From an uncultured Clostridia bacterium (GTDB lineage Bacteria > Bacillota > Clostridia > Oscillospirales > Oscillospiraceae), in NCBI GenBank assembly GCA_946411475.1, contig CAMKED010000010.1, forward strand, positions 1 through 34,728: 34,728 nucleotides of DNA, written 5' to 3'. Shown here in pieces: positions 25,416-33,645 of the stretch. The notes beneath the pieces are model-generated. The model saw nothing but the letters and a program-made list of their open reading frames with translations. It was not told the origin of the DNA and made no database searches. The position numbers were made by a program, and so were the translations under genes. The stretch's first letter is position 1, and each line of letters opens with the position of its first letter.

Positions 25416-25445
25416 AAAGACCGCAGGTTTTACCCTGCGGTCTTT
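25416..25445. terminator. Bidirectional terminator between the Cys-rich gene and the secreted-protein gene
   Basis: A 12-bp stem (AAAGACCGCAGG / CCTGCGGTCTTT) with a 6-base loop, followed on the plus strand by CTGTTTTATTT and on the minus strand by TGTTG. It lies between convergent genes. Confidence 0.88.
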
Positions 25446-25465: not shown

Positions 25466-28400
25466 TCAGCCGACGGTGGTGTAGTAGGTGGTGGAGCTGC
25501 CGCCGGTGGTGGTCAGCTTCCAGAGGTACAGGCCGGTGGGCACAGAGGAGCTCACCATGAAGTAGTTGCTGGAAGCGAAGGCCAGGTAGGGATATCTGCT
25601 GCTGGCGCTGTTGGAGACAGTGGCGTTGCCGCTGCTGATGGACAGGCTCCACTGGCAGTAGCTGGAGGAGTAGCTGGAGCGGCTGTACAGGTAGGAGTTG
25701 TAGCTGCCCAGGTAGGTGCCGGTGGACTTGTTGCGGATGGTGTACTTGGAGCCGGTGGAGGCGATCTCGAATACGTAGGCGTCGGAGACACCGGTGAGCT
25801 GGCCGTCGGCATAGGTCATGCCGGTGTTGCTGTACAGGACAGCGCCGCCAGCGGAAGCGGACTCATACTTGGTGTTGCCGGACAGGCCCTTCAGCATATA
25901 GAGGCTGCTGGTGTTTGTGCCGTAGCTGATGACGTAGCTGCCGGTCCAGTCAGCGGGAGCAGACTCCAGGAGCTCATAAGCCGTACCGCTGCCGCCGGAG
26001 GTGGAGGTGTAGGAGTACAGGGCGTAGAGCGTGACGTTGCCGTTGACGGTGACGTTGCCGGTGTAGGTGGTGGGCTGAGTGGTGGCGTTGCTCACAGTGG
26101 AGGTGACCCAACCCAGGAAGGTGTAGCCGGAGGGAGCCGCTGCAGTGGGCAGGGTGATGGTGCCGCCCGCGGTCACGGTCTGGCTGGCGGGAGCGCTGAT
26201 GCCGCTGGGCACGGAGAAGTTCACCGTGTAGGTGGTCTCAGGCTCGGGATTGGTGGCGCTGGGGCTGGTGGTGTAGTAGGTGGTGCCGCCGTTGGTCTGC
26301 TTCCACAGACGCAGGACGTTGGCATTGGAGGAAGAGGCAGACCAGAAATACTTGCTGCTGGTGTTGAAGCCGAAGTACGGATAGCTGCCGTTGGCGTAGT
26401 TCTTCAGCTGGGCAGCGCCGCTGGAGTTGACAGCGGGAGTCCATCTGCAGTAGGAGGAGTTGTAGGAGGTGTAGCCGGACAGGTAGGAGGAGGAATTCAT
26501 GCCCATGTAAGCGCCGGTGTTCGCGCTCTGCAGCGTGTAGTAGCTGCCGGTAGCGGTCATCGTGAACACGTAGGCATTGGAAACATTGGACAGAACGTTG
26601 TTGGACAGGCTCATGCCGGTGCTGGAGTAAGCAGTGGCATTGGAGCTGTTCTCGATCTCAGCGCCGTTTGAGCTGGGAGTCACGCCCGTCAGCACGTACA
26701 TGCTGGTGGAGTTGCCGTTGGTGACAACGTAGTTGCCGGCCCAGGAGGAGGGAGTGGAGGTGACCAGCTGGTAGCTGGTGGCGCCGCTGCCGCCCTGGGT
26801 GCGGGTGTAGACCGCGTAGAGGGTGACGTTGCCGCTGGGAGTGTAGGAGCCGGTCAGGATGTTGGGACGGGCAGCGGTCTCAGAGACGGTGCTGGCGCAC
26901 CAACCGGCGAAGGAGTAGCCGCTCACGGAGGTGGCGGTGGTGGGCAGAGTCACGGACTCGCCGGAGTAGCAGCTCAGGGTGTTGTAGGTGGAGCCGTTGG
27001 CCTTCAGGGTCACGGTGTACTGGGTCTTGGCGGCGAAGTTGATGCGAACCGTGCAGTTGGAGGACGGATTCACCGTGAAGGTGTTGCCGTTCTGGGTCAC
27101 GGTGGCGGTGCCGCTGGTGACAGTATAGCTCGCAGCGTAGTAGCCGGTCTTCGGGCTGGCAGTGATGACGTTGCCGTTGACGGAGACGGTACCGTAGCTG
27201 GTGTTGTTGGAGGTAGCGGTCACGGTGTAGGAGCTGCTGGAGCCGCCGAAGAGGTTCCAGGTGGAGTAGACGTTCTGAACCGCGTCCACATAGCCGTGGC
27301 CGGGGTAGGCGTCCTCAGAGGAAACAACAATGGGGAACGCCACATGGTTGGAGACCGCCTGAGACTGGCTGTAGGAGGAGTAGGCGGGATCCCACTTGCC
27401 CAAAGCGTTCTTCGCCTTGTTCAGAGCAGTACCGAAGTTGTCGCCGTTCTTGACGTAGCCCAGGATGGACTGGATGTACTGCTTCTCACCGGAGAAGGAG
27501 ACGGACTGGGAATAGCCGTAAACAACCTCAACGCCCTTGCTGCGCAGGCCCTTGTACATACCGTCGGTGGCCATGCCCAGGCAGATGCCCATGTAAACCA
27601 GGGAGTGAGGCGCATTCTTGGTCATGTGGTTGGCAATGCAGGTACCGGAAACGTAAGCGTAGCCGGAGCCCTTCATGCACTCGTAGTAGGTGCCGTAGGG
27701 GCCGCTCTTGGCCTGCGTATCAGCGGTGGTGACACCGGAGTTGGTGGTCAGGCAGAGGTAAGAGCAGTTGGCGCGGGAGGTGTAGTCGCCGTTAGAGCCG
27801 GAGTAGTCGGTGGTGCCGTGGGAGTCGAAAATGACAAGGCCGCACTCTTCGATGGTTCTGGCGATGTTGTCAACCGTGGCATTGGTCATGGAGTAACGCA
27901 TGCCGGTGCCGCCGGTCGCAGCATAGAGGTTCTGCCACATGGTCTTGTAGGCAGGAGAATAGCTGGTGAAAGAGGAGTCGGAGTAGGAGGAGCTGGACTC
28001 CCAGTAGGGCTGGATCAGACCAATCTTGGTGGAGTTGGCGCTGCCGCCGCGGGTGCTGACAACTTCGTCCAGCATAGCCTTGGCCTCAGCCTCAGCCTGG
28101 GCGATCTCCGCGGGCGTGGGATCGTTGACGGTGTTGTGAAGCTCTGCTTCCATTCTGGGGTCATAGCAGCAGGGCATTCCGGTCGTGGTCTGCCAAACCA
28201 GGAAGTTACCGTTCTGCTGCAGTGTGCCGGGAACGTAGGTGGAGGAGGACTCGATTGCTTTAATAACCTGAGGGAGAATGCGAACGTAGTCGGCCTCGGT
28301 CATCGAGCTGATGCCGCCCATACGGGTCGCGGCTCCGGTTTCGACCTTGGAAATCTTTGCAAACACGTCGTTATCCAGGATAGCATTGTCTGCATCTGTG

Positions 28401-28531
28401 AAGACATGGTCCCGATCGATCCGACCGGAATTACTGGTTCTTCCCCCCGCGGCAGCCATGGTGGGCAGAAGGCCGGCAACCATAGCCAAGACAAGCAGGA
28501 GCGCGAACAGGCGTTTAAACTGTTTACTCAT
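25466..28531 (-). CDS. Secreted modular protein, probable clan CD (caspase/gingipain-like) cysteine peptidase
   Basis: A 1021-residue protein with a clear Sec signal peptide (basic KQFKR, then FALLLVLAMVAGLLPTMAAA, cut near 28). A propeptide-like region runs to about 160. The region 165-410 carries the two hallmarks of clan CD: a hydrophobic strand ending in His-Gly (LVIFDSHG, His238) and one ending in the Cys (SLVYMGIC, Cys317). After that come an about 70-residue beta region (433-500), an InlB-type repeat (504-576, FAGWCAST..VTLYAVYT), a 160-residue module (587-745), a second InlB-type repeat (767-840) and a second copy of the module (851-1006). The protein ends in STTYYTTVG, the same linker that follows the first module. 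No LPxTG, SLH or transmembrane anchor is seen. Peptidase activity is inferred from motif pattern. It has its own promoter; AAAGGAG lies upstream at a long 13-base spacing. Confidence 0.8.
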   Translation of the reverse strand: MSKQFKRLFALLLVLAMVAGLLPTMAAAGGRTSNSGRIDRDHVFTDADNAILDNDVFAKISKVETGAATRMGGISSMTEADYVRILPQVIKAIESSSTYVPGTLQQNGNFLVWQTTTGMPCCYDPRMEAELHNTVNDPTPAEIAQAEAEAKAMLDEVVSTRGGSANSTKIGLIQPYWESSSSYSDSSFTSYSPAYKTMWQNLYAATGGTGMRYSMTNATVDNIARTIEECGLVIFDSHGTTDYSGSNGDYTSRANCSYLCLTTNSGVTTADTQAKSGPYGTYYECMKGSGYAYVSGTCIANHMTKNAPHSLVYMGICLGMATDGMYKGLRSKGVEVVYGYSQSVSFSGEKQYIQSILGYVKNGDNFGTALNKAKNALGKWDPAYSSYSQSQAVSNHVAFPIVVSSEDAYPGHGYVDAVQNVYSTWNLFGGSSSSYTVTATSNNTSYGTVSVNGNVITASPKTGYYAASYTVTSGTATVTQNGNTFTVNPSSNCTVRINFAAKTQYTVTLKANGSTYNTLSCYSGESVTLPTTATSVSGYSFAGWCASTVSETAARPNILTGSYTPSGNVTLYAVYTRTQGGSGATSYQLVTSTPSSWAGNYVVTNGNSTSMYVLTGVTPSSNGAEIENSSNATAYSSTGMSLSNNVLSNVSNAYVFTMTATGSYYTLQSANTGAYMGMNSSSYLSGYTSYNSSYCRWTPAVNSSGAAQLKNYANGSYPYFGFNTSSKYFWSASSSNANVLRLWKQTNGGTTYYTTSPSATNPEPETTYTVNFSVPSGISAPASQTVTAGGTITLPTAAAPSGYTFLGWVTSTVSNATTQPTTYTGNVTVNGNVTLYALYSYTSTSGGSGTAYELLESAPADWTGSYVISYGTNTSSLYMLKGLSGNTKYESASAGGAVLYSNTGMTYADGQLTGVSDAYVFEIASTGSKYTIRNKSTGTYLGSYNSYLYSRSSYSSSYCQWSLSISSGNATVSNSASSRYPYLAFASSNYFMVSSSVPTGLYLWKLTTTGGSSTTYYTTVG

Positions 28532-28580
28532 GTTTGTTTTCTGACTCCTTTTTTGAAATTGTTAATAGAAAGACGAATAT

Positions 28581-28597
28581 GCGGTTTGGTGCACCGC
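28581..28597 (-). other. Stem-loop at the 5' end of the secreted-protein mRNA
   Basis: GCGGT-7 bases-ACCGC at the inferred transcription start, overlapping an 8-bp palindrome GGTGCACC (28588-28595). It could be an mRNA hairpin or an operator; the sequence alone cannot decide. Confidence 0.4.
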
Positions 28598-28602
28598 GTT
28601 CG

Positions 28603-28631
28603 ATTATAGCATCTTTCGTGTATTTTGTACA
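28603..28631 (-). promoter_or_regulatory. Promoter of the secreted-protein gene
   Basis: On the minus strand TGTACA and TATAAT (28608-28603) are 17 bases apart; the -10 is extended by TG (TGCTATAAT). The leader is about 65 bases. Confidence 0.7.
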
Positions 28632-28952: not shown

Positions 28953-29819
28953 TCAACGTGCAATTTTTGCTGTCAATCCATCCGCTGTACAGATAATTTG
29001 AATCGGTCCGTTTCGGGTCAAAAGCGCTTCTACGGAAAACTCAGAAAGCAATTCCATCGTTTCGGGCTCCTCCGGTTCTTCTTCGGAAGACGTAATCAGC
29101 GCGTAGTCCGGTCTCGTTTCGTTCAACAGTTCCCGCAGCGTTTTCTGATACTTTCCGTGGTGCGGCAGCTTCACAAAGTCGAATCGGCCCGGTTTGGTCT
29201 CAAGAAACTCCTCCGTGCGCAAATCCTCTGCATCCCCGCAGAAGAGCAACCGATGATTCCCATGGGAAACGGTGACGATCAACGAGGAATTGTTGCTCTC
29301 GTCCTGCGGGTAGCTGTCCTTTTCCGGAGGATTCACGGTAAAGACTGTCTCCCCCAGAGAAAAAGACATCGTTTGACGAACCGTAACGGGTTCAAGGCCG
29401 CAGCTCTCCAAGGCGGCAAGGTACTTTTCATAGGCCTCCGCACCTTCCTTAGGGCTGTTGCTTTGCAGCACGGTTCCAACCGGAATCCCGGAAAGGAGCT
29501 TCTTCGCACCGCCGACGTGGTCCTTATCAAAATGCGTAATCAGCAGATAATCCAGACGTTTGATGTCAAGCTCCGCCAGCTTTTCCAGAATTGTCTTTCC
29601 AAAGCCGCTCTCCCCTGTATCGATCAGCACGGCGCCGGTCTCGTTCCAAAACAAAAAAGCGTCGGCTTTACCCGCCTGAAAGCACCACACGTTCAGCGTG
29701 GACGTTTCCGAACCCGGCGTCTTTGCTGTCGCAGACGTGAATGCAGTCGCTTTGCCTCCGCAACCCGACAGAACGCAAATCAATATTAAATATAATACAA
29801 GTTTTTTGCTTCTCATCAT
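28953..29819 (-). CDS. ComEC-like metallo-beta-lactamase-fold lipoprotein
   Basis: A 288-residue exported protein. The N-terminus is a lipoprotein signal (YLILICVLSGC, lipid-modified Cys20), so it should sit on the outer face of the membrane. The metal site THFDKDHVGG gives the HxDxDH form typical of the ComEC/Rec2 C-terminal domain. The downstream FCGDAED and LPHHGK motifs also fit that subgroup. ComEC-type domains are thought to degrade one DNA strand during uptake, and free-standing versions may act on DNA or other phosphodiesters; the substrate here is not known. AAGGAG lies 7 bases before ATGATG. It is followed by a strong terminator, so it is transcribed apart from the secreted-protein gene. 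Confidence 0.88.
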   Translation of the reverse strand: MMRSKKLVLYLILICVLSGCGGKATAFTSATAKTPGSETSTLNVWCFQAGKADAFLFWNETGAVLIDTGESGFGKTILEKLAELDIKRLDYLLITHFDKDHVGGAKKLLSGIPVGTVLQSNSPKEGAEAYEKYLAALESCGLEPVTVRQTMSFSLGETVFTVNPPEKDSYPQDESNNSSLIVTVSHGNHRLLFCGDAEDLRTEEFLETKPGRFDFVKLPHHGKYQKTLRELLNETRPDYALITSSEEEPEEPETMELLSEFSVEALLTRNGPIQIICTADGLTAKIAR

Positions 29820-29984: not shown

Positions 29985-31766
29985 ATGATATTTGGTCGGC
30001 ATATCAACCGCTACTACCTGCGTTATTTGCACTTCCTGTTGATCGGACTCGGCGCGTTGATTGCAGTAGACTATTTACAGCTCATCGTACCAAATCTCTA
30101 TCAGATGGTTATCAACGGCCTCAACAACGGCTGGGTGACTGTAGACGGGGTAGAGCTCCCCTTTGACATGGACTTTGTTCTCGAACGAATCTGTACGCCC
30201 TTGCTCATCATCATCTTTTCCATGGTGGCGGGCCGTTTCCTTTGGCGCATCATGTTCCTGGGCACCGCCCACAGGGTGGACGAGGATCTGCGAAACCGGA
30301 TGTTCGACAACGCCCGGCATCTGAGCCAAAGCTACTTCCAGATTCACAAGGTCGGCAGTCTCATGAGCCTGTTCACCAACGATTTGGAATCCGTGCTGGA
30401 AAGCTTCGCCTGGGGCTTTATGATGTTCTTTGACGCGCTGTTCCTGTCTGCGCTGGCCCTGACCAAAATGTTCCGCATGAACTGGCAGCTCACAGCACTG
30501 TCTCTGATTCCCACTGCCCTGCTGCTGGCCTCGGCCACGGTCGTCGGCAAGTACATGATGAAAAAATGGGACATTCGGCAGGAGGCCTACGCCCGCCTGT
30601 CCGATTTCAGTCAGGAGAGCTTTTCCGGCATTGCCGTGATCAAGGCATTCGTCAAGGAAGCCAAGGAGCTCATGGCTTTCCGCAAGCTGAATGAGGAAAA
30701 CGAGGTTGCGAATATCAACCATACCAAGGCTTCCGTCCTGCTGCGGGTGCTTGTGATGATGTTCGTGGAGAGCGTCGTCTGCATCATTCTGGGCTACGGC
30801 GGATATCTGGTCTGGAAGGGCACCTTCAACGCCGGCGAGCTGGTAGAGTTTATCGGCTATTACACCGCTGTCGTATGGCCTGTGATGGCTGTTTCGGAAC
30901 TGATTGACATGACCTCCCGCGGCAAAGCCTCTTTGAAGCGCATCGGGGAGCTGCTGGACGCGAAGCCCGACGTGGTGGACGCCCCAGATGCAAAACCCAT
31001 CGGCCCAATCCGCGGTGAGATCGAATTCAAAAATCTGAGCTTCCGCTATCCGGACGGGGAATTCGACGTATTGAAGGACGTCAGCTTCCGCATCGAAGCC
31101 GGAGAAAACGTGGGCCTGGTCGGCAAAACCGGCTGTGGCAAAACCACCTTGGTGGACCTGATTCTGCGGACCTACAACGTCCCGGACGGGACCCTGTTTG
31201 TGGACGGGCATGACGTGAACAGCGTTACGATTCACTCCCTGCGTGAGGGCTGCGCCTACGTGCCGCAAGACAACTACCTCTTCTCTGAGACCATTGCGGA
31301 GAACATCTCTTTCGCGGTAGACGGCAGTACCCGTGCCGAGGTGGAGGAAGCGGCGACGCTCGCTGACCTCTACAGCAATATTCAGGAGTTCCACCAGGGC
31401 TATGACACCATGCTCGGCGAACGCGGCGTCACGGTATCCGGCGGTCAGAAGCAGCGAATCTCCATTGCGCGCGCCTTGATGAAAAACGCCCCGATCCTGA
31501 TTCTGGACGACTCCGTCTCCGCCGTGGACACGCAGACAGAGCGCGTCATTCTGAAAAATCTTCGCAAAACCAGAGCTGGCAAAACAACCATTCTGATCGC
31601 TCACCGGATTTCCACCATTCAGGAAATGGATAAACTGCTCTATCTGGAGGATGGGCGGATTACTGCCGTGGGCACCCACGAGCAGCTTTACGAAACCTGT
31701 CCGGGATATCGGAAGATGGTCGATCTGCAAAAGTTGGAAGAGGAAGGAGGGAACGGCCATGCCTGA
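29985..31766 (+). CDS. ABC exporter subunit 1 (heterodimeric, degenerate catalytic site)
   Basis: A 593-residue type IV ABC half-transporter: six transmembrane helices (to about 320) fused to a nucleotide-binding domain. Walker A is GKTGCGKT (about 380-387), the Q-loop lies in YVPQDNYLFSE, and the signature VSGGQKQR is intact. Walker B ends ILILDDSVSAVD, so the catalytic Glu is Asp509. That is the mark of the non-catalytic half in heterodimeric exporters such as BmrCD or TM287/288. Likely substrates are drugs, lipids or peptides; none can be assigned. GAGGAGG precedes the ATG. The gene overlaps its partner by 8 bases (ATGCCTGA). Confidence 0.94.
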   Translation: MIFGRHINRYYLRYLHFLLIGLGALIAVDYLQLIVPNLYQMVINGLNNGWVTVDGVELPFDMDFVLERICTPLLIIIFSMVAGRFLWRIMFLGTAHRVDEDLRNRMFDNARHLSQSYFQIHKVGSLMSLFTNDLESVLESFAWGFMMFFDALFLSALALTKMFRMNWQLTALSLIPTALLLASATVVGKYMMKKWDIRQEAYARLSDFSQESFSGIAVIKAFVKEAKELMAFRKLNEENEVANINHTKASVLLRVLVMMFVESVVCIILGYGGYLVWKGTFNAGELVEFIGYYTAVVWPVMAVSELIDMTSRGKASLKRIGELLDAKPDVVDAPDAKPIGPIRGEIEFKNLSFRYPDGEFDVLKDVSFRIEAGENVGLVGKTGCGKTTLVDLILRTYNVPDGTLFVDGHDVNSVTIHSLREGCAYVPQDNYLFSETIAENISFAVDGSTRAEVEEAATLADLYSNIQEFHQGYDTMLGERGVTVSGGQKQRISIARALMKNAPILILDDSVSAVDTQTERVILKNLRKTRAGKTTILIAHRISTIQEMDKLLYLEDGRITAVGTHEQLYETCPGYRKMVDLQKLEEEGGNGHA

Positions 31767-33645
31767 GTACCTTCCCATTTTGATCGTAGGCGCCGTTATC
31801 GGCGTATTTGCCATCGTATTCCTTGCCGCTTTTCTGCTCGAAAAGGACAAGAAAAAAACCATGGGCTTTGAGCGGAACGTGGCCGACGGCGAAATCATCC
31901 GGCGTCTGCTGCGCTATGCCAAGCCCTACAAAGGCCAGTTCTTTCTTGTCCTCCTGGTCATGCTGTTCTCCATCGCCTATGACGTAGTCTCTCCCCTTCT
32001 GATCGGCAAAATTGAAGACATGATCAAGGACAGCTTCCCCCTTTCAGAGCTCCTTTCCTATGTGATCGTGTACGCGGGAATTCTGATCGTCAGCTTGATC
32101 TGCACCTATGCCCAGGCCATGCTGCTGCAAAAGGTCGGTCAGAAGATTCTCTCTCAGATCCGCATGGACACCTTCACGCACATTGAGAAGCTGTCCCACG
32201 AGCAGTTGAACAACATTCCTGTTGGCAAGCTGGTCACCAGAGTCAGCAACGACCCCAACTCCATCTCGTTCCTTTTCACCAACGTGCTGGTAACCATGGC
32301 GAAGAACACGCTTGTGATCTTCGGCGTGTTGGCCGCAATGCTGAGCTTGAACTACGCATTGACCTTGATGGTGCTCTGCTTCGTTCCCTTTGTGGTACTC
32401 TTCACCATCATCTTCCGCAAGTTCTCCCGCAAGGTTCACCGCCGCGTCAACGACGCCACCACCGCCATCAACACCTACCTCTCCGAAAACCTCTCCGGCA
32501 TCAAAATCACGCAGAGCTTCAACCGGGAAGATCGGAAAATGGAGGAATTCCGGATCAAGAGCGCAGAGCTTCGGAAAGCCAAAAATGCCCGTATGCTGGT
32601 CTTTGGCATTTTCCGGCCCATGGTATACATGCTCTATATCTCCACGGTTCTGTGTCTGTTCTTCTTCGGAGCCAAAGGAAAAATTCAGGATTTGCACTGG
32701 TTTGGCCAGACCATTACCTCCGGTGTGGTCGTAAGCTTCTACATGTACCTGAACAAGTTCTTCAATCCGATCCAGACCCTTGCCGAGCAGTTTGATATGC
32801 TCCAAAAATCCTTCGCCTCCGCTGAAAAAATCTTCTCCATTCTGGACATCGTCCCCGAGGTCGTGGACGAACCGGGTGCGGTCGAGCTGGATGAAATCAA
32901 GGGTGAGATCGAGTTCCGGGACGTCTGGTTTGCCTACAAGCCTGACGAATGGGTGCTCAAGGGCGTGTCCTTCCACGTTCTGCCCGGTCAGACCGTGGCC
33001 TTCGTCGGCGCGACCGGCTCCGGCAAGACGACCATTCTCAGCCTGATCTGCCGGAATTATGACATTCAGAAGGGGCAGATCCTGATCGACGGCCGCGACA
33101 TCAAAAGCATCCAGATTGCTTCTCTGCGCCGCCACTTCGGTCAGATGCTCCAGGACGTCTTCCTCTTCTCCGGCGATATCCGTTCCAACCTGATCCTGCG
33201 GATGGACGGCGTCAGCGACGAGGAAATCATGAAAGCCTGCAAGTACGTCAATGCAGACAGTTTCATTAACCGTCTGGAAAAGCGGCTGGATGAGCCCGTC
33301 CGGGAGCGCGGCAATAACTTCTCCTCCGGTCAGCGTCAGCTTCTGAGCTTTGCAAGAACGATCTTGCACAAGCCCTCGGTCATCATTCTGGACGAGGCAA
33401 CCGCAAACATTGACACGGAGACGGAGCTGCTGATTCAGGATTCTCTGGAGCGGATCAAGACGATCGGCACCATGCTGATCGTGGCGCACCGCCTTTCCAC
33501 GGTCCAACACGCCGACAACATCATCGTGCTTTCACACGGCGAGATCAAAGAGCAGGGCAATCACCAGGATCTGCTGGCGCAGAAGGGTATGTATTATCGG
33601 CTCTACACGCTGCAATTCAACAAGCAGGCGCTGCTGAAAGCGTAA
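31759..33645 (+). CDS. ABC exporter subunit 2 (heterodimeric, catalytic half)
   Basis: A 628-residue ABC half-transporter. An extra N-terminal helix (LPILIVGAVIGVFAIVFLAAFLLE) precedes the six-helix core, then the nucleotide-binding domain. Walker A is GATGSGKT (about 417) and Walker B VIILDEATANID with the catalytic Glu546. The signature is FSSGQRQLL in place of LSGGQ, typical for this partner. The two halves together give one competent and one degenerate ATP site. The start is the ATG at 31759 with GGAGG upstream; the longer track ORF reads into subunit 1. A terminator follows. Confidence 0.95.
   Translation: MPEYLPILIVGAVIGVFAIVFLAAFLLEKDKKKTMGFERNVADGEIIRRLLRYAKPYKGQFFLVLLVMLFSIAYDVVSPLLIGKIEDMIKDSFPLSELLSYVIVYAGILIVSLICTYAQAMLLQKVGQKILSQIRMDTFTHIEKLSHEQLNNIPVGKLVTRVSNDPNSISFLFTNVLVTMAKNTLVIFGVLAAMLSLNYALTLMVLCFVPFVVLFTIIFRKFSRKVHRRVNDATTAINTYLSENLSGIKITQSFNREDRKMEEFRIKSAELRKAKNARMLVFGIFRPMVYMLYISTVLCLFFFGAKGKIQDLHWFGQTITSGVVVSFYMYLNKFFNPIQTLAEQFDMLQKSFASAEKIFSILDIVPEVVDEPGAVELDEIKGEIEFRDVWFAYKPDEWVLKGVSFHVLPGQTVAFVGATGSGKTTILSLICRNYDIQKGQILIDGRDIKSIQIASLRRHFGQMLQDVFLFSGDIRSNLILRMDGVSDEEIMKACKYVNADSFINRLEKRLDEPVRERGNNFSSGQRQLLSFARTILHKPSVIILDEATANIDTETELLIQDSLERIKTIGTMLIVAHRLSTVQHADNIIVLSHGEIKEQGNHQDLLAQKGMYYRLYTLQFNKQALLKA

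Follow-up and report, generated by a model that had tools for sequence, protein, structure and literature searches.

A predicted secreted CHAT-like cysteine protease with an InlB-repeat/beta-trefoil tail common to other peptidases of ruminant-gut Clostridia

The gene at 25466-28531 on the minus strand of the window (the whole 34,728-nucleotide stretch analysed, from an uncultured Clostridia bacterium) encodes P0001, a protein of 1021 residues. We consider it probable that P0001 is an exported cysteine endopeptidase with a Cys317/His238 dyad in a caspase-haemoglobinase fold, nearest to CHAT and hence to separase, and tethered by its tail near its substrate. The placement of its head in clan CD, as a CHAT-like domain, is well supported by conservation and predicted structure; P0001 is likely an active secreted protease. 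Since the same tail occurs on several secreted peptidase families, P0001 most likely belongs to an uncatalogued secreted protease family.

The reading frame, taken from the ORF list and its translation, opens with an ATG at 28531 and, judged also by its relatives, is a real gene that probably stands as a single-gene unit. A Shine-Dalgarno sequence, AAGGAG, lies just upstream of the ATG (28545-28550, minus strand). A consensus scan also picked out a promoter-like site, TGTACA-17-TATAAT with a TG ahead of the -10 element (28603-28631, minus strand; suggestive only), and inspection together with a scan revealed a terminator-like hairpin of 12 pairs just 3' of the stop codon (25416-25445); such promoter- and terminator-like sites are no more frequent here than in the shuffled background. 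Gene neighbours are conserved only as far as local synteny extends among the closest relatives, and a search for an operon partner thus came up empty. The head had no match in phage and plasmid collections and thus gives no sign of mobility.

P0001 consists of a signal peptide, an N-terminal domain, the domain carrying His238-Gly239 and Cys317, and a Ser/Thr-rich tail, in this order. As the sequence-only reading had proposed, the N-terminus is a clear export signal: the n-, h- and c-regions of residues 1-28, MSKQFKRLFALLLVLAMVAGLLPTMAAA (28448-28531, minus strand), can be read directly, and a hydrophobic N-terminus is kept in the alignment of close relatives. The "propeptide-like stretch" of that reading has to be reworded, since residues ~80-125 form a small domain that is predicted with confidence in the AlphaFold model of the whole head and has positions conserved even in remote members. 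This N-terminal accessory domain (residues 45-160; 28052-28399, minus strand), delimited by conserved positions and the model, contains a conserved hairpin, NGxFxxWxT..G..CxYDPxM, in which G118, Y123 and W113 are conserved across the family alignment, divergent members included. It is a possible pro-domain. The linker that follows (residues ~136-163) is hypervariable and modelled with low confidence between two conserved flanks, and could be a processing site.

The putative catalytic residues lie in the CHAT-like, caspase-haemoglobinase-fold domain (residues 163-428; 27248-28045, minus strand), as delimited by the models, Foldseek and hhalign. In the trimmed model His238 (codon 27818-27820, minus strand), within LVIFDSHG, comes after strand beta-3 and is followed by Gly239, and Cys317 (codon 27581-27583, minus strand), within LVYMGIC, ends strand beta-4. 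A regular expression for strand-[ST]HG ... strand-C, written post hoc, matched 11 of 20,000 shuffled versions of P0001; the motif pair is rare yet not conclusive alone, and the case therefore rests on conservation. H238, G239 and C317 are invariant in all 29 close relatives, and they remain so (18 of 18) once members of 26-44% identity join the alignment. Across 22 catalytic domains that range from close to barely detectable relatives, remote homologues included, these three residues and G333 and G339 are invariant, and nothing else is. The remaining cysteines of the domain all vary, and H302, the only other well-kept histidine, is absent in three of the 22. The conservation of His238 and Cys317 in homologues, which had been put forward as a check on the dyad, is thus complete in this set.

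AlphaFold models built on a shallow alignment reached a pLDDT of 65.5 for the whole head, and a pLDDT of 74.2 with a pTM of 0.80 for the trimmed domain. Loci taken from genome searches were excluded from the input for the trimmed domain, and one of them, L002, was part of the alignment used for the whole head. Both models follow the order beta1-alpha-beta2-alpha-beta3(His)-small sheet-alpha-beta4(Cys)-alpha-beta5, which is the order described for clan CD (PMC4357240). The first half of the trimmed model runs through strand 8-12, a helix, strand 48-52, a helix and strand 70-73 to residue 76, which is His238; small strands (77-132), helix 134-140 and strand 148-154 then lead to residue 155, which is Cys317, followed by a helix and strand 172-179. 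The caspase-type sheet that structure prediction had been suggested to reveal is present in the models, with His-Gly ending beta-3 and Cys ending beta-4 as in clan CD, and the two residues have the order and setting that the sequence-only reading had assigned to them. In a Foldseek search against the PDB, the best matches were SAVED-CHAT chains (8tl0; E 2e-5, probability 1.00), followed by Craspase TPR-CHAT, with separases and CED-3 lower; TM-scores did not rise above a modest 0.46 by query. Also among the best fold matches was DdvA (8rw5, 8rot), a transmembrane anti-sigma factor, and we found no paper on a caspase-like domain in DdvA in the open-access literature.

Pfam and NCBIfam contain no model for the head, and PADLOC and PDB sequence searches returned nothing for it. 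In profile-profile comparison with hhalign, the family matched a 12-sequence CHAT alignment (ten sequences from plasmid records, two from genome loci) at 91-95% (P 1e-6 to 7e-8), and the catalytic His and Cys of the two profiles fell on each other. Controls in which alignments were reversed or their columns shuffled, or in which four unrelated proteins of the window were used, gave at most 0.7%. The Pfam CHAT model (PF12770) did not match P0001 and matched weakly in 3 of the 29 close relatives; the best member, L041, scored E 7e-4 and 19.5 bits, below the curated cut-off of 24. Because this cut-off is missed, we term P0001 CHAT-like and keep it out of PF12770.

The name CHAT comes from an association with TPR repeats, and most of what is known of CHAT domains concerns intracellular systems such as Craspase and SAVED-CHAT, mainly in signalling and defence. 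P0001 resembles CHAT peptidases (PF12770; SAVED-CHAT and the TPR-CHAT/Csx29 of Craspase) in predicted fold, strand order and the positions of His-Gly and Cys. It differs in that no TPR repeats were found in it and that it carries a signal peptide and extracellular repeats in place of TPR or SAVED partners; the Cys motif, moreover, reads GICLGM or SC.. in the P0001 family and SAC.T in CHAT. Separase (MEROPS C50), which bacterial CHAT resembles (PMC9729208), is likewise of clan CD and among the fold matches of P0001, but it is eukaryotic and intracellular and its match is weaker than that of CHAT. For CHAT itself, reported His-Cys distances are about 3 A in the active and 7 A in the inactive state (PMC9729208). 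Secreted C1 peptidases with a Lectin_like domain share with P0001 a similar export signal and the InlB-repeat and beta-trefoil tail, whereas their catalytic head is unrelated, with a papain fold and Cys before His. Searches of the open-access literature turned up no account of secreted CHAT proteins as a family in Firmicutes.

Past residue 430, the tail is made of InlB-type repeats and two copies of a module of ~165 residues. The InlB-B-repeat-like region (residues 436-578; 26798-27226, minus strand) matches Pfam Flg_new_2 (PF18998) best at 506-578, and residues 436-505 were assigned from the layout of relatives. Residues 768-837 (26021-26230, minus strand) form a Listeria-Bacteroides repeat, Flg_new (PF09479, E 9.9e-19 for the protein). 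Module 1 (26282-26785, minus strand) was placed by module alignment and by RicinB_lectin_2 and Fascin matches in members, and module 2 (25502-25990, minus strand) by module alignment and a search of the window's own genome. The module looks like a beta-trefoil: RicinB_lectin_2 (PF14200) matches 12 of 17 module copies with a best E of 8e-5 (for the module in the window the score is 18.8 bits, where the cut-off is 25.6), Fascin matches at E 2e-4, and PDB matches to fascin and ricin-type lectins are weak.

The module is present in four proteins of the window's genome, namely P0001, its second copy, one peptidase of the papain family and one HEYQH-motif protein, and the head of all four is a peptidase or putative peptidase. 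The papain-family peptidase (L105:1280-5647, contig C14) has a Lectin_like domain; the head of the HEYQH (HExxH) protein (L106:4-2911, contig C34) has no Pfam match. With 40 regions of 17 genomes added, the module was found in 49 ORFs. CHAT-like sequence occurs in 11 of these, two of them only partly, and 36 carry other heads, including 17 Peptidase_C1, 7 Peptidase_S8 and 4 Cthe_2159 by Pfam and 5 HEYQH by motif. These counts describe mostly, though not exclusively, a protease tail, and since the 17 genomes were picked because they hold the P0001 family, the share of peptidase heads is not an unbiased estimate. The Cthe_2159 proteins (L139, L128, L131 and L134) are carbohydrate-binding proteins with the same beta-trefoil tail, and tail sharing is thus no proof of proteolysis.

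Four other explanations of the head were weighed. That it is a different alpha/beta domain with a superficial likeness to caspases is very improbable: flavodoxin-like proteins do appear among the weaker Foldseek matches (E above 0.01), but CHAT chains and DdvA take the first nine places, with separases next, and the CHAT profile link aligns the catalytic residues against clean controls. We regard membership in the gingipains (C25), clostripains (C11) or caspases/metacaspases (C14) as equally hard to credit. These families share with P0001 the clan, the fold and the order of His before Cys, and some of them are secreted; they lack a family-level sequence match, as PF01364 (C25), PF03415 (C11) and PF00656 (C14) matched no member scanned among P0001, its relatives and the remote members, and no gingipain or clostripain was among the fold matches listed. 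Against alignments drawn from phylum genomes, hhalign gave 2-13.5% for C14, the upper value from the widest alignment, and 0.4-1% for C11, far from the CHAT values; the C11 figure is a weak test, as the same method gives no C11-CHAT link either, and a failed link hence does not mean exclusion from the clan. Among the clan CD families named by the sequence-only reading, which had also called for this profile search, CHAT is thus the one linked, by fold and profile and with the dyad aligned. C14 is linked weakly and C11 not at all; on the Pfam and hhalign results for these two, and the Pfam and fold results for C25, neither gingipain, clostripain nor caspase proper is supported as the identity of the head.

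The two other explanations accept the fold and concern what the head does. Caspase-fold families include pseudo-enzymes, and the head could be a dead binding scaffold whose His and Cys are conserved for structure, a reading that also fits the presence of the same tail on heads of the Cthe_2159 type, not known to be enzymes. We think this improbable, because dead copies would be expected to lose the dyad, whereas His-Gly and Cys persist in 22 highly diverged sequences in which nearly all else, every other Cys included, has drifted. The chief rival, unlikely in our judgement though deserving of more weight than the other three, is that the head mainly processes its own protein: the dyad would cut the linker (~136-163) or the junction with the tail, and thereby mature or release a surface protein. 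Self-processing is common among clan CD enzymes (PMC4357240), with YabG as an example (PMC12445089), and the hypervariable, low-confidence linker between conserved flanks would suit such a cut. That linker, however, shows no conspicuous conserved cleavage motif (TRGG is common in close relatives and missing in others), and a tail held in common with C1 and S8 peptidases points to action on other proteins.

On the preferred reading of P0001 as a tail-tethered secreted endopeptidase, the protein would be exported and lose its signal peptide, and the N-terminal domain (45-160) may keep the enzyme inactive or assist its folding. Cys317 would then attack the carbonyl of the substrate while His238 carries the proton. 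The InlB-type repeats and beta-trefoil pair of the tail probably attach to glycan or envelope material, which would place the enzyme near its substrate, so that proteins outside the cell would be cleaved; dietary, plant, microbial-surface or host proteins are candidates. More broadly, ruminant-gut Clostridia may have uncatalogued secreted CHAT/separase-like proteases and a toolkit in which one InlB-repeat/beta-trefoil tail is fitted interchangeably with heads of papain, subtilisin, HExxH and CHAT-like type, which would make CHAT an extracellular digestive or surface-acting enzyme; we judge this wider picture about evenly balanced between right and wrong. A secreted CHAT branch with no curated model would mean that the ruminant gut community has one more protease family that annotation has missed. 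One tail with several kinds of head suggests a testable rule, by which the tail would set the place of action and the head the cut, and makes the tail a handle for finding more unannotated peptidases.

A scan of species genomes yielded 26 loci of relatives. Their genomes are all uncultured or metagenome-assembled and carry the labels Oscillospiraceae, Ruminococcaceae, Lachnospiraceae, Erysipelotrichaceae, Clostridiales, Clostridia or Bacillota; the named sources are mostly ruminant. The earlier attribution to a gut Clostridium therefore has to be widened, as the nearest relatives comprise Oscillospiraceae along with other Clostridia assemblies, the majority of ruminant origin. The heads of close relatives are 66-93% identical to P0001, and the window's genome itself, a draft that is 82.5% complete, holds the second copy on contig C53 (64% identical). 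When 295 genomes from the order were searched with a profile, four more genomes proved to encode divergent heads, at 26-44% identity; several other apparent members matched only in the signal peptide and were discarded. Class-wide and phylum-wide searches returned four more remote proteins (search E 1e-4 to 7e-9), some of them with SLH or choice-of-anchor-L features. Remote members in other Firmicutes proteins (L067, L068, L035 and L036) are combined with SLH, choice-of-anchor-L, von Willebrand-like or zinc-ribbon parts, and these architectures suggest that CHAT-like proteins of the membrane or surface form a wider family. In addition, L068 weakly matches YabG, the spore protease. The window's genome further encodes a clostripain-family (C11) protein and an SLH-like-repeat protein with a weak C14 match (L081/L093; G000:C13:6148-7005 and G000:C13:20875-21336), and so holds several clan CD proteins.

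Next to the P0001 gene, a metallo-beta-lactamase-fold gene with a lipoprotein-like signal (LSGC) lies at 28953-29819 (minus strand), with no evident link to P0001. The long frame antisense to the P0001 gene (27296-28609, plus strand) and the antisense ORFs P0002 and P0003 resemble coding-bias shadows and were set aside. The long frames at 30075-31898 and 32044-33510 (both minus strand) likewise face other long frames and are, as is the frame at 27296-28609, probably such shadows; long antisense frames of this kind make the window a trap for automatic gene calling.
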